NCBI RefSeq assembly: GCF_000518885.1 | Contig: NZ_JAEL01000045.1 | Location: 286 to 32,795 of the forward strand | From: Bacillus sp. J33 | Lineage (GTDB): Bacteria > Bacillota > Bacilli > Bacillales > Cytobacillaceae | Direction: 5' to 3' | Length of the DNA stretch: 32,510 nt | Part shown: positions 3,905 to 32,510 of the stretch, piece after piece | Position numbering within the stretch: the first letter of the stretch is position 1 | Layout of the letters: the number at the start of each line of letters is the position of its first letter | Notes under the pieces: generated by a model | What the model was told of the DNA's origin: nothing | Database searches by the model: none | The model's input: the letters and a program-made list of their open reading frames with translations, nothing else | Translations under genes and position numbers: made by a program

Positions 3905-4030
3905 AAATGGAGACGCTCTAAAAGAATAGCCCATGGCACCTGCTTATTGACCGCATAATCCGGGCAGATAGTGCCATCAGCTAGACAGTTGCCGAAGTCC
4001 AATTTTATAAATTTTTCATATTCAAAGAAG
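3905..4030 (+). other. ispE 5' leader with a hairpin
   Basis: The leader contains ATGGCAC (3933-3939) pairing with GTGCCAT (3971-3977), extended inward by CTGC (3940-3943) / GCAG (3964-3967) across a 3-base bulge. I recognise no known riboswitch class. It may be structural or incidental. Confidence 0.4.
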
Positions 4031-4972: not shown

Positions 4973-5791
4973 ATGAAATTTCGCAGGAGCGAACGGTTAA
5001 TAGATATGACTAATTATTTATTAAACCATCCGCGTCAGCTGGTATCCTTAACTTTCTTCTCAGAAAGATATGGTTCTGCCAAGTCTTCCATAAGCGAGGA
5101 CTTGACAATTATAAAAGAAACATTCGAACAGAGAGGGATAGGCACTCTGCAAACTGTGTCTGGAGCTGCTGGCGGGGTTAAATTCAATGTAAAGGTAAAT
5201 GATGATGAGGCTCGGCCTTTTGTGGAGGAGCTTTGCAGCTTAATTGCCAGTCCGGAAAGGCTTTTGCCCGGAGGCTATCTTTATATGACCGACATTCTGG
5301 GTGACCCATCGATAGTCCAGCGTGCCGGAAGATTATTTGCATCCGCATTTGCTGATAAGCCAATTGATGTCGTTATGACAGTGGCTACAAAAGGAATTCC
5401 GCTCGCCTATGCCGCGGCCAATTATCTCAATGTCCCAGTCGTCATTGTTAGACGCGACAGCAAGGTGACAGAAGGGTCGACAGTAAGCATTAATTATGTT
5501 TCAGGCTCTGCCAAGAGGATTCAAACTATGGTTCTTTCGAAAAGGAGCCTCGCAGAAGGCTCAAATGTTTTAATCATAGATGATTTTATGAAAGCTGGCG
5601 GAACAGTGAATGGGATGGTCAGCATGCTTGAGGAATTCAAGGCCAATTTGGCTGGTATTGCCGTTCTGGTTGAGGCAGAAAAGGCTGAGGAACGGCTGGT
5701 TGATGAGTATCTTTCGCTTGTGCGCCTATCTGATGTAGATGTACGGGACAAAAAGATCAATGTAAGTGAGGGAAACTATTTTAGAAAATAG
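4973..5791 (+). CDS. purR: Purine operon repressor PurR
   Basis: Transcriptional regulator of purine synthesis and salvage genes; binds PurBox pairs and is released by PRPP. The 272-residue protein has an N-terminal winged-helix DNA-binding domain (about residues 1-75; helix region SERYGSAKSSISEDL) and a C-terminal phosphoribosyltransferase-like domain. The PRPP motif LIIDDFMKAGGTVNG (about 201-215) has the paired aspartates but serves ligand binding rather than catalysis. A PurBox pair directly upstream indicates autoregulation. The stop codon TAG touches the first base of a family A repeat, which separates purR from ridA, whereas these genes are adjacent in B. subtilis. Confidence 0.97.
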   Translation: MKFRRSERLIDMTNYLLNHPRQLVSLTFFSERYGSAKSSISEDLTIIKETFEQRGIGTLQTVSGAAGGVKFNVKVNDDEARPFVEELCSLIASPERLLPGGYLYMTDILGDPSIVQRAGRLFASAFADKPIDVVMTVATKGIPLAYAAANYLNVPVVIVRRDSKVTEGSTVSINYVSGSAKRIQTMVLSKRSLAEGSNVLIIDDFMKAGGTVNGMVSMLEEFKANLAGIAVLVEAEKAEERLVDEYLSLVRLSDVDVRDKKINVSEGNYFRK

Positions 5792-6022
5792 GCTGTCTAA
5801 AAGCTTAATGTTCACTTAACACTTGTTTATTGAAGCGGAAGGTTCCTTAAAAAAATCTTTGCATTCTTCGTGCGGTGTTTTTTCGAGGATGCCCAGCCAT
5901 TCAATATCCTGCAGGAGAAGCATCCCAAGGGAGACCCGGCAGGCGTAAAACGCGCGACGAGCCGGAAGCTCGCAGTTCGCTCTAGTGTCTGCAGCAAATC
6001 AGCATTCAAAAATAACAGAGCC
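5791..6022 (+). repeat. Family A repeat between purR and ridA (copy A2)
   Basis: Left end GGCTGTCTAAAAGCTTAATG, inner TTGTTTATTGAAGCGGAAGG, central GGGAGACCCGGCAGGCG block (about 5930-5946), right end ATTCAAAAATAACAGAGCC. The outer ends form an imperfect inverted repeat. At 232 bp it is the longest copy here. It begins on the last base of the purR stop codon and ends 30 bp before ridA. It keeps one frame open in phase with ridA, so automated calls may wrongly extend ridA by about 60 residues. Confidence 0.75.
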
Positions 6023-11662: not shown

Positions 11663-11824
11663 ATTTATCCCGCATTAACGGGCAGTAAGGCCCCCATTTC
11701 AAGAGTTTGAGAGTCAAAGGGATAATTCTAAGTGGGGGTTCAACTGCCCGTAAATGCCCGATTGGTTCAACTAACCATCAGTGGGGGGATGAAAAAACCC
11801 CCACTGATGGAAGTTTCACTTTAT
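11663..11824 (+). repeat. Family C multi-hairpin repeat (copy C1)
   Basis: Hairpin 1: ACGGGCAGT (11678-11686) / ACTGCCCGT (11743-11751) with an inner CCCCCA (11691-11696) / TGGGGG (11733-11738). A small TGGTT/AACCA hairpin comes next. Hairpin 3: CCATCAGTGGGGG (11775-11787) / CCCCCACTGATGG (11798-11810), 13 perfect pairs. The tail AAGTTTCACTTTAT (11811-11824) recurs exactly at the end of a related element before tilS. No protein is encoded. Confidence 0.7.
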
Positions 11825-11915: not shown

Positions 11916-11975
11916 GGCAGTGTTGGGCTTTGCTTTTGCAATTTGCCCTGCACTGCCATGGCGCTTGCGCTTTCT
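11916..11975 (+). repeat. Hairpin plus family B right-end fragment
   Basis: GGCAGTG (11916-11922) / CACTGCC (11951-11957) with inner GGGC (11925-11928) / GCCC (11945-11948), followed by GGCGCTTGCGCTTTCT. The last part matches the right border of the family B copy that follows at 11997-12119. This looks like a remnant or rearranged copy. Confidence 0.5.
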
Positions 11976-11996
11976 ATAGATAAAGTAAATTTTTTC

Positions 11997-12119
11997 GAAC
12001 TGCGATAACTGTCTAGCTCCAGCGCCTACCCCCTCGAGGTCACAAGAAAGGCAAAGAACGCCTTTCCGTGGGGCTCGTCTTGTGCTTGTCGGGGGTGGGC
12101 AAGGCGCTTGCGCTTTTCT
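11997..12119 (+). repeat. Family B cruciform repeat before mfd (copy B1)
   Basis: Nested arms: GCGCC (12022-12026) / GGCGC (12103-12107); CCCCC (12029-12033) / GGGGG (12091-12095); CACAAG (12041-12046) / CTTGTG (12079-12084); AAAGGC (12047-12052) / GCCTTT (12060-12065) around loop AAAGAAC. The left border is GATAACTGTCTAGCTCC, and the right border runs into GCGCTTTTCTT. It ends about 6 bp before the mfd ribosome-binding site, and its T-rich right border could work as a terminator for read-through from upstream. With C1 it accounts for most of the roughly 600 bp without genes between fin and mfd. Confidence 0.8.
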
Positions 12120-20324: not shown

Positions 20325-20366
20325 AACTTCAATAACTGTCTGGATGTGGCGCCTTGCGCTTTTCTA
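20325..20366 (+). repeat. Minimal family B remnant (copy B2)
   Basis: AATAACTGTCTGG fused directly to GGCGCCTTGCGCTTTTCT. These are the left and right borders of the family B element with the whole cruciform interior missing. The remaining GCGC-CTT-GCGC followed by TTTTCT may give a weak terminator after rqcP. Confidence 0.6.
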
Positions 20367-22456: not shown

Positions 22457-22670
22457 GCATCTAGCTCCAGCGCCTAGCCCCTCGGGTCATAAGCCAAATC
22501 ACTCCAGAAATCAGGACAAGGAAGGCTTCGGCAGCGATACATCGCCTGACCAAAGCGAGCTTTGGTAGGTTTCCTGCGTGATTCGTCTTATGCCTGTCGG
22601 ACTTGCACAGGACGTGGCGGTTTTTAGCTGAAGTTCCTATGTCAAGGCGCTTCAGCTTTTGTTCTTTTTC
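22457..22670 (+). repeat. Family B cruciform repeat, large copy (B3)
   Basis: GCGCC (22470-22474) / GGCGC (22646-22650); CATAAG (22488-22493) / CTTATG (22587-22592); AATCAC (22497-22502) / GTGATT (22578-22583). The interior is longer than in other copies and holds a different apical region (about 22503-22577). The GCCCC left arm has lost most of its partner, and a CGGACTTGCACAGG segment interrupts the right side. No coding potential; it fills the yabR-tRNA gap. Confidence 0.7.
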
Positions 22671-22735: not shown

Positions 22736-22807
22736 TGACCCGTACGGGATTCGAACCCGTGTTACCGCCGTGAAAGGGCGGTGTCTTAACCGCTTGACCA
22801 ACGGGCC
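22736..22807 (-). tRNA. tRNA-Glu (UUC)
   Basis: Read on the minus strand, it starts GGCCCGTTGGTC and has anticodon TTC in a GCCCTTTCACGGC loop region, a T-arm GGGTTCGAATCCC and 3' end ACGGGTCA. All four arms pair. It closely matches the B. subtilis tRNA-Glu in this same chromosomal position (trnSL). CCA is not encoded. It is second in a tRNA-Met/tRNA-Glu unit, with three family B repeats between the two. Confidence 0.97.
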
Positions 22808-22836
22808 TTGGTAAGATTAATTGTATTTTAACATTC

Positions 22837-22941
22837 CAGCTTCAGCGCGTAGGGGATCTGTCAAAAAGGTAAAGTACAACCTTTCTGCCATCTTGTCTTA
22901 TGCTTGTCGCCCCTGGGCAACACGCTTCCGCATCCTATGAT
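22837..22941 (+). repeat. Family B repeat, tandem unit 1 (copy B4)
   Basis: Shares 86 identical bases (22856-22941) with copy B6 (23106-23191), but lacks a 17-base block containing the CATAAG arm, so its CTTATG has no partner. AAAGGT/ACCTTT hairpin and GCCCC remain. It looks like a deleted duplicate of B6. Confidence 0.75.
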
Positions 22942-23065
22942 GTCCAGCTTCAGCGCCTACCCCCTCGAGGTCACAAGCCGATCCTCCCATAAAGGTAAAG
23001 AACACCTTTCCGTGAGGATCGGCTTGTGCTTGTCGGGGGTGACCAAGGCGCTTCCGCATTTCAGT
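22942..23065 (+). repeat. Family B repeat, tandem unit 2 (copy B5)
   Basis: The most complete cruciform. GCGCC (22953-22957) / GGCGC (23047-23051); CCCCC (22960-22964) / GGGGG (23035-23039); CACAAGCCGATCCTC (22972-22986) / GAGGATCGGCTTGTG (23014-23028), 15 perfect pairs; AAAGGT (22991-22996) / ACCTTT (23004-23009) around AAAGAAC. A 66-codon open frame across it (22904-23101) is not protein-like. Confidence 0.85.
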
Positions 23066-23191
23066 AGTCCAGCTTCAGCGTGTAGGGGCTCGAGGTCATA
23101 AGCCAATCTGTCAAAAAGGTAAAGTACAACCTTTCTGCCATCTTGTCTTATGCTTGTCGCCCCTGGGCAACACGCTTCCGCATCCTATGAT
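23066..23191 (+). repeat. Family B repeat, tandem unit 3 (copy B6)
   Basis: Arms GCGTG (23078-23082) / CACGC (23171-23175); GGGGC (23085-23089) / GCCCC (23159-23163); CATAAG (23097-23102) / CTTATG (23147-23152); AAAGGT (23115-23120) / ACCTTT (23129-23134). The first two arms differ completely from B1 and B5 but still pair. Its right end abuts the 3' end of tRNA-Met. Confidence 0.85.
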
Positions 23192-23264
23192 AGCGGCGGA
23201 GGGGATCGAACCCCCGACCTCACGGGTATGAACCGTACGCTCTAGCCAGCTGAGCTACACCGCC
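23191..23264 (-). tRNA. tRNA-Met (CAU), elongator type
   Basis: On the minus strand it begins GGCGGTGTAGCTCAGC, with anticodon CAT in ACGGTTCATACCCGT, T-arm GGGGTTCGATCCCC and 3' end CCGCCGCTA. It matches the B. subtilis elongator tRNA-Met of the trnSL pair, also upstream of spoIIE. The acceptor begins with G1-U72 as in that tRNA. CCA is not encoded. It is first in the minus-strand unit. Confidence 0.96.
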
Positions 23265-23336: not shown

Positions 23337-23473
23337 TAAGATATTTAAAGAAATATGTCGCAAATCTTCACAGAGACTTCGTCAATTTTTTCCAAATGGT
23401 TGATTTTCCGGAAACTGGACTTTTTGGGTTCTCTCACTATTTCTGTTATTCAGGGAAATGTCTTTAACAAAAA

Positions 23474-23549
23474 GGCTGTGTTAAAGCTGAATGTTCTTTA
23501 TAGCATTCTGTTGATTGAGCGGAAATCAGCAATCAAGTTTAACAGAGCC
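23474..23549 (+). repeat. Internally deleted family A repeat (copy A3)
   Basis: GGCTGTGTTAAAGCTGAATG...CTGTTGATTGAGCGGAAATC...AAGTTTAACAGAGCC, 76 bp. It consists of the left border and the right border of family A with the central 100-150 bp missing. Ends form an inverted repeat (GGCTGTGTTAAA / TTTAACAGAGCC). A 97-codon frame across this area (23355-23648) is not protein-like and lacks a ribosome-binding site. Confidence 0.75.
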
Positions 23550-23600
23550 ACCAAAAAAGGCTTTAAATATTGTTATCTAATCCCATATATGGTGGAAAAC

Positions 23601-28026: not shown

Positions 28027-28230
28027 ATATTTGTCCTGCATTAACGGGCGGTGAGATCCCCATGCGGCCAAATTGTAAAGAGAATTCTTAATGGGAGCCA
28101 GCTGTACATAATAGCCCTTATCAAAGGTCAGATTGTCCGATGTATTGCTGCCTTGTTCTGGTTTGCCCCGGATCGTGCTGGCCATAACCATCAGAAAGAA
28201 AAGCACCCGCTTATATAAGTTTCACTTTAT
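28027..28230 (+). repeat. Degenerate family C repeat (copy C2)
   Basis: The left part, CATTAACGGGCGGTGAGATCC and the CCCCAT / ATGGG stem, matches hairpin 1 of copy C1 (11663-11824), and the end AAGTTTCACTTTAT (28217-28230) is identical. The middle (about 28107-28200) is unrelated to C1 and may be replacement sequence. A 73-codon minus-strand frame (27985-28206) overlaps it. The element fills the gap between yabT and tilS; I see no gene there. Confidence 0.6.
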
Positions 28231-32417: not shown

Positions 32418-32420
32418 GAA

Positions 32421-32447
32421 AAAGCGCCTTTGGGCGCTTTTTTCTTT
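32421..32447 (+). terminator. Terminator after ftsH
   Basis: AAAGCGCC / GGGCGCTTT with a short TTT-type loop, followed by TTTTCTTTT. Confidence 0.9.
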
Positions 32448-32472
32448 TCAAAAGATAAGAAAGTATCACTTT

Positions 32473-32510
32473 GAACTTCGATAACTGTCTAGCTCCGGCA
32501 CCCTATCGAC
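32473..32510 (+). repeat. Family B repeat, left border at the window edge (copy B7)
   Basis: GAACTTCGATAACTGTC then TAGCTCC, the left border also seen before copy B1 (11997-12020). The arm begins CGGCACC here, unlike GCGCC. The element is cut by the window end. Confidence 0.65.

Follow-up and report, generated by a model that had tools for sequence, protein, structure and literature searches.

The window, a stretch of 32,510 nucleotides of DNA from Bacillus sp. J33 (Bacillales; genome of 5.56 Mb, handle G000), holds copies of a non-coding hairpin repeat of approximately 120 bp, among them an array set between two tRNA genes. The features are listed below by position, with bit scores from R1, a covariance model built from ten copies of the Bacillus sp. 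J33 genome, or from the Rfam tRNA model.

3979..4016, minus strand: leader and unit remnant GTCTAGCT (inverted repeat I3)
11960..11974, plus strand: right-end remnant of an older unit (GGCGCTTGCGCTTTC), preceding the B1 leader; read from the sequence
11976..12010, plus strand: B1 leader, AT-rich, ending GCGATAACT; other copies carry the same leader type
12011..12118, plus strand: B1, CCCCC/GGGGG arm type (R1, 122.8 bits)
20338..20364, plus strand: deletion derivative, left end joined directly to right end (repeat family D4)
22459..22660, plus strand: B3, with two inserted modules (apical; right arm); R1 matches 22459–22626
22736..22807, minus strand: tRNA-Glu gene, array boundary and synteny anchor (Rfam tRNA, 67.5 bits)
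22834..22936, plus strand: B4, left side internally deleted (R1, 55.9 bits)
22942..23062, plus strand: B5, full-length unit of 121 nt, CCCCC/GGGGG arm type (R1, 140 bits)
23067..23186, plus strand: B6, full-length unit, GGGGC/GCCCC arm type (R1, 118.8 bits)
23191..23264, minus strand: tRNA-Met gene, array boundary and synteny anchor (Rfam tRNA, 60.8 bits)
32419..32510, plus strand: terminator-like hairpin and T-run (AAAAAGCGCC/GGGCGCTTTTTT), leader and unit left end (GTCTAGCTCC), truncated by the window end

B5 and B6 lie head to tail with a spacer of 4 nt, and B4, which is close to B6 in sequence, ends 5 nt upstream of B5. B3 lies on the far side of tRNA-Glu from this B4–B6 array and has the right end CAAGGCGCTTCAGCTTTT; B1 is approximately 11 kb distant from the array. 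The arms of B5 are GCGCC/GGCGC, CCCCC/GGGGG, CACAAG/CTTGTG and AAAGGT/ACCTTT around the loop AAAGAAC, and those of B6 are GCGTG/CACGC, GGGGC/GCCCC, CATAAG/CTTATG and AAAGGT/ACCTTT around the loop AAAGTACA; the apical hairpin of B1 is AAAGGC/GCCTTT. A preliminary description of this DNA had reported that the copies share one layout and that their arms differ in letters while still pairing. Re-reading of the sequence bears out the pairings given for B5, B6 and B1; the second arm of B3 is broken by the inserted modules and B4 has lost part of its left side. No shuffled sequence among 200 folded equally well for B5 (DNA fold, z = −7.2) or for B6 (RNA fold, z = −4.3).

The order of tRNA-Glu and tRNA-Met is the same in 14 relatives. 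The interval between the two genes measures 41–70 nt and holds no full unit in G019, G003, G008 and G011, 147–188 nt with one unit (degenerate in some) in nine relatives, 296 nt with two units in G007, and 383 nt with three units, one partly deleted, in Bacillus sp. J33. Right-end remnants lie beside tRNA-Met in G019 and G003, and none is obvious in G008 or G011. The arm types of the units in this interval differ between species. In some relatives (loci L144, L146 and L156), another short tandem motif (GTGACCGATAAA ...) occupies the stretch between the upstream gene and tRNA-Glu.

Two further repeats were observed in the window. A second palindromic family (TTAACGGGCAGTAAGGCCCCCA ... CCACTGATGGAAGTTTCACTTT) occurs at 11663–11824 and 28029–28230, and a copy like it flanks a hairpin repeat unit near position 241475 of G001. 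Inverted and direct copies of a AACAGAGCC / TTAAAGCT repeat, perhaps the ends of an insertion sequence or miniature inverted-repeat transposable element (MITE), lie at 1–53, 5779–5817 and 23465–23558; a similar stretch adjoins a hairpin unit at L023.

Anatomy and distribution of the unit

The 5′ part of the unit comprises an optional AT-rich leader of approximately 35 nt (often ending GATAACT), GTCTAGCTNCAG, arm 1 (7 bp), an A, arm 2 (4–5 bp) and CTCGAGGTCA. The middle consists of arm 3 with a variable tip, followed by CTTGTCG, and the 3′ part of arm 2′, a T, a one-sided bulge of 5 nt, arm 1′ and TTCCGCTTTTC. The bulge, most commonly GAGCA, GGGCA or GACCA, is present in 93 of the 110 full-length copies. 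The unpaired ends GTCTAG and CGCTTTTC are mostly conserved, their columns ranking among the most conserved of all, and the outermost ends of the unit are not inverted repeats of one another. The unit terminates in a hairpin followed by CTTTTC, and is thus terminator-like. A possible outward promoter in the leader was rejected on inspection by eye, because the candidate boxes are spaced too variably among copies.

Model R1 gave 74 matches at E ≤ 0.1 in Bacillus sp. J33, including four reverse-strand hits to positions that had already been counted. Matches were found in 57 of 61 genomes (Bacillus sp. J33 and 56 of 60 relatives) and in seven of 101 genomes across the class, Bacillus sp. J33 included; the per-genome counts are lower bounds. 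A pattern scan of named genomes found at least 119 stretches, and nearly all of the 80 matches listed are labelled Bacillaceae. Among the matches listed are the genera Cytobacillus, Mesobacillus, Neobacillus, Rossellomorea, Metabacillus, Peribacillus, Robertmurraya, Heyndrickxia and Sutcliffiella, species still named Bacillus, and the odd labels Paenibacillus sp. and Chryseobacterium sp., which may be mislabelled. The repeat was not found in plasmids or phages by blastn, or in viral contigs by pattern scan.

The preliminary description knew of no named family with this layout and had called for a comparison with Rfam. In that comparison, only the flanking tRNAs of the window reach threshold, and the weak hits overlapping B6 (E 0.94 and 0.98) are no better than chance. 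Within the open-licence literature, six short stretches of the repeat were not found in print, no recognisable description appeared in listings and abstract openings, and a passage search of PMC2267715, PMC3733652, PMC8632094, PMC2864571 and PMC3446304 did not find the repeat. The absence of a named family therefore stands within Rfam thresholds and this literature search.

Covariation of the arms and the wobble test

The handful of copies in the window cannot prove covariation, and the case therefore rests on 110 distinct full-length copies from 127 matches, which were aligned in two halves by sequence only, blind to structure, to avoid circularity. The 11 highest covarying column pairs correspond exactly to arm 1 (seven pairs) and arm 2 (four pairs). 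By the APC-corrected G statistic these score 32–60, whereas 20 column shuffles reached at most 16. The shuffles take no account of shared ancestry, through which many columns that do not pair also rise above that value. A further 22 column pairs (ranks 13–34), mostly non-base-pairs, also exceed 16, with the best at 28.6, below all eleven arm pairs. The view of the preliminary description that the covariation reflects a folded molecule is supported.

All four of GC, CG, AT and TA occur at seven of the 11 arm pairs. The 1203 ungapped arm cells comprise 1151 Watson–Crick, 6 G·T, 15 A·C and 31 other combinations, compared with approximately 704 Watson–Crick cells expected from shuffling, and 306 of the Watson–Crick cells hold a pair other than the commonest. 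The copies display 61 distinct arm combinations, 29 of them wholly Watson–Crick; when each is counted once, there are 614 Watson–Crick, 6 G·T, 15 A·C and 29 other cells.

In RNA helices, G·U is the usual tolerated step. In the arms, A·C (the wobble of the minus strand) outnumbers G·T (that of the plus strand) by 15 to 6, which is not significant (p = 0.08), whereas 50 distinct tRNAs from the loci analysed contain 59 G·T and 2 A·C in their acceptor and T stems. The difference between repeat and tRNA is pronounced (Fisher p = 6e-10). This tRNA control was used without a pre-filter for well-paired stems, with the acceptor stem taken as the better of two registers; one of the 70 tRNA sequences had no T-loop match.

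Since G·T is no commoner than A·C, unlike in tRNA stems, selection in an RNA strand is disfavoured, and, judged from these sequences, it is apparently as DNA that the arms keep their pairing. Pairing at the DNA level would mean either that an enzyme reads the folded strand or that one arm templates the other. The preliminary description had not decided between RNA, single-stranded DNA and cruciform DNA, or between selection and copying as a hairpin; the wobble counts tell against RNA, while selection and templating both stand, with the bulge arguing for selection.

Templating, in the form of palindrome correction through template switching in replication, would be what mainly keeps the arms complementary, in place of selection on the fold; the repeat would then be a sequence that is mobile or copied in tandem, and its covariation would be silent on function. 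This alternative would need no shape-reading enzyme. The arms often change as whole blocks, wobble pairs are no commoner than A·C, as templating would give, and ABAB arrays show that ordinary copying also takes place. However, templating should erase a one-sided 5-nt bulge and a mismatched inner loop, and the retention of the bulge together with the conserved unpaired end columns makes it unlikely that templating is the main cause; these features favour selection on shape, with some share of templating possible.

It is very improbable that the repeat is a family of structured non-coding RNAs that spread by duplication and whose hairpin is selected in RNA. This reading would fit the strong predicted fold, the covariation and the position of units within a tRNA cluster, and the bcr repeats of Bacillus cereus, seemingly alike in kind, are described as transcribed in approximately half of their copies (PMC3446304). 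The wobble counts oppose it, as does the absence of any Rfam family at threshold; furthermore, little transcription would be expected of the many units positioned behind terminators.

Sites of presence and absence, terminators and arrays

Sites were compared in a single genome pair, G001 and G003, which are 97.6% identical over 1600 nt at the tRNA-Glu/tRNA-Met locus, using 0.8 Mb of each genome. Seventeen sites, at which the other genome aligns on both sides or nearly so, were picked by hand from 54 unit entries. Five were left out because, in the other genome, the site held an unrelated stretch, an older remnant, or an array longer or shorter by one unit; the remaining 12 were aligned base by base, and one of these was set aside as its ends belong to another repeat family. 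G001 and G003 differ by the presence or absence of a unit at comparable sites. This difference is taken to reflect insertion, with a polarity that is inferred because the comparison has no outgroup, and some differences could be losses.

At eight of the 11 sites, the unit lies at an intrinsic terminator hairpin and T-tract, in the sense orientation and with its left end facing the terminator, as judged by eye from printed folds; the hairpin at G1:417205, among these eight, is only weak (−3.0 kcal/mol). No terminator was seen at the other three (G3:148971, G3:66324 and G1:45334). The possible target duplication at the 11 sites, one of which (G1:163318) aligns poorly on its right side, measures 4, 0, 4, 3, 1, 3, 2, 2, 0, 0 and 2 nt, and there is thus no fixed target duplication. 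A classical MITE served by a DDE transposase was rejected on account of this variation (0–4 nt) and of outermost ends that are not inverted repeats.

A scan of all copies for terminators retained 129 copies (35 array and 94 solo), after the removal of 47 hits that were incomplete or without a left end, eight duplicates and three hits without flank. A strict sense terminator lies within 95 nt upstream of 32 of the 94 solo copies (34%), a class defined by regular expression that includes some array or nested units and in which a neighbouring unit's hairpin accounts for some ‘terminators’; an opposing terminator lies downstream of two of the 94. In the control, which drew on G001 and G003 alone while the copies come from many genomes, a terminator was present at 84 of 600 intergenic positions chosen at random behind a sense gene (Fisher p = 9e-6). 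The distance from the start of the T-tract to the left end of the unit is 7–20 nt in nine copies, 32–56 nt in 21, and 61 and 72 nt in two, classes which fit units without and with the leader. Among 41 units placed between ORF calls, two sit between divergent genes, compared with 125 of 612 long intergenic regions; four entries inside an ORF call were left unplaced. The array in the window, which lies between two tRNA genes and not behind a terminator of its own strand, counts against a terminator rule. At L017:1501–1615, the unit does not follow the terminator hairpin (AACACTGCT ... AGCAGTGTTTTTTT) but lies within its loop.

Arrays of five to eight units with spacers of 3–6 nt occur at L266, L352 (Rossellomorea sp. 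AcN35-11) and L253. Unlike arm types are mixed in L253 and L266; in L352, two types alternate (ABAB), a pattern that plain tandem duplication of a pair explains. Some array junctions read CTTTAT. At several sites, a unit is nested after the CACAAGC of another to give a composite of approximately 270 nt, and the recurrence of this composite suggests that the outer ends define what moves. Companion hairpin modules (CAAGGAACGCAGACTAAGAACGCCACGTCC ... and CAAGGAACGCTACGGCAGC ...) were observed within units at L019, L021, L023, L024 and L028, and units thus seem to be targets for other small repeats.

Candidate enzymes and relation to known elements

Profile searches for candidate mobilising enzymes covered 61 genomes, with ‘no match’ denoting none at E ≤ 0.001. 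Y1_Tnp (PF01797) had no match in 18 genomes, 11 of which have at least 50 repeat matches (G001, G004, G005, G009, G010, G013, G019, G024, G028, G029 and G035). The GIIM maturase (PF08388) was unmatched in 33 genomes, including the copy-rich G001, G004, G009, G010, G013, G019, G029 and G035, and RVT_1 in 24, including the copy-rich G001, G009, G010, G013, G016, G019, G025, G029, G045 and G055. The IS110 transposase (PF01548) was unmatched in 14 genomes, among them G025, G038, G040 and G060 with at least 33 copies each, and an element of the IS110 type, with a bridge RNA, was rejected on that count. All four profiles were set aside because they are unmatched in copy-rich genomes. The integron integrase (TIGR02249) exceeded its cut-off in none of the 61 genomes, and relatives of the tyrosine-recombinase (Xer-type) kind score below that cut-off in all 61. 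A core tyrosine recombinase of the Xer kind is, as a matter of speculation, a candidate mobiliser.

Among the matches listed, a unit lies in the flanks (approximately 1.5 kb per side) of two of 36 transposase, maturase or reverse transcriptase loci, and of two of 30 scanned Y1 loci. A left end paired with a right end at a gene's length was not found in 1.6 Mb. G008:C18 has nine equal-scoring matches to an IS200-like Y1 transposase gene; one of these, L086, has three repeat units and a fragment within 1.3 kb downstream.

From these comparisons, the hairpin repeat is probably mobilised in trans by a putative enzyme that would recognise the folded DNA and insert it behind terminators. The best reading is of a non-autonomous mobile DNA hairpin that targets terminators, resembling REPINs and attC sites and a member of neither on the features tested. 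The folding reported in the preliminary description is retained, and the mobility, the terminator-associated sites and the wider arrays, which it had not seen, change what the repeat is taken to be. In the proposed mechanism, the enzyme would read the unit folded as single-stranded DNA or as a cruciform and join its left end behind a hairpin and its T's. With its own terminal hairpin and CTTTTC, the unit could serve as the next target, which, alongside ordinary tandem duplication, would give rise to arrays. A unit behind a terminator would do little harm, so that copies may accumulate, and the letters of the arms would drift freely provided that pairing holds.

In a REPIN, one REP occurs twice in opposite orientation and bears a conserved tag, GTAG or CGTC. 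In the present repeat, arm 1 is inverted at both ends, but GTCTAG and CGCTTTTC differ, and a minus-strand GTAG beside arm 1 is possible only if arm 2 starts with C, as in at most 39 of the 110 copies. REPINs are described as REP doublets that form hairpins and are thought to be moved by RAYT transposases (PMC3116915). They share with the repeat a short, non-coding hairpin of inverted parts, many intergenic copies, compensatory stem changes and tandem clusters, as reported in the same source. However, the repeat is a single asymmetric hairpin with a one-sided bulge, a preference for terminators and arrays of unlike units, and the RAYT to which REPINs are tied would be a Y1 transposase, unmatched in the 11 genomes listed above and with units in the flanks of few of its loci. 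Movement of the repeat as a REPIN-like element by a REP-associated Y1 (RAYT) transposase is accordingly highly doubtful.

Integron cassettes form head-to-tail arrays at one attI, and the R boxes of attC sites read GTTRRRY / RYYYAAC. The repeat likewise forms head-to-tail arrays, and the GTTRRRY / RYYYAAC boxes were not seen by eye in its consensus. For attC sites, PMC2727003 describes little sequence conservation, recognition of the folded site by extrahelical bases, a central spacer and a variable tip. The repeat similarly appears as a folded site with one-sided extrahelical bases (the bulge) and variable arms (the 61 combinations), with shape kept over sequence. In contrast to integrons, which need the integrase IntI, the repeat occurs in genomes with none over the cut-off, no gene was seen in the unit, and its sites are scattered over the chromosome.

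BCR elements are described as 100–400 bp in length, with suspected movement resembling site-specific recombination at TTTAT motifs (PMC6542083), and bcr1–bcr3 have been called MITE-like (PMC3446304). Both are repeats of Bacillaceae, and TTTAT occurs at some junctions only of the present repeat (CTTTAT); BCR elements, compared here by description and not by sequence, are said to be confined to the B. cereus group. The blastn search gave no match of the present repeat in plasmids. Of the stem-loop families (Bhal-1, Bcr1) that Cozzuto et al. describe as repeated in Bacillus genomes, Bhal-1 is listed as 74 nt (PMC2267715), against approximately 120 for the repeat, and is set apart by description only.

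Group IIC introns are described as inserting just after rho-independent terminators (PMC8919778), which resembles the position of the repeat behind terminators (eight of 11 sites by eye; 32/94 vs 84/600). The repeat differs in being 120 bp without a gene and in occurring in many copy-rich genomes with maturase and reverse transcriptase unmatched, and ribozyme parts were not seen in it by eye. That a unit RNA ending in U's is reverse-transcribed into the A-rich strand of terminator T-tracts, the sites that group IIC introns choose, is barely plausible: the shared site preference, a T-run at both junctions of several sites and the lack of a constant target duplication speak for such a retroelement, but RVT_1 and GIIM are unmatched in copy-rich genomes and the wobble test opposes constraint in RNA.

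A non-autonomous hairpin that targets terminators could also, as a tentative possibility, belong to a gene-less cassette system, in which a shape-reading recombinase would use intrinsic terminators as chromosome-wide attachment sites and the unit would amount to a self-made, terminator-like site. If so, units would insert behind terminators and behind each other to give arrays without an integron, and any stretch between two hairpin-plus-T sites could be carried along.

Small hairpin repeats are common, and few cases show that the shape of the DNA, and not its letters, is what is kept. Here, subfamilies have arms that differ yet pair, with no favour for wobble, which provides a direct sequence test of folding at the DNA or the RNA level. 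If the inferred targeting holds, group IIC introns would not be the only mobile DNA to find a safe harbour at intrinsic terminators, and the terminators of these genomes would be recombination sites. Which enzyme moves such orphan repeats is testable in one genus with many close genomes.
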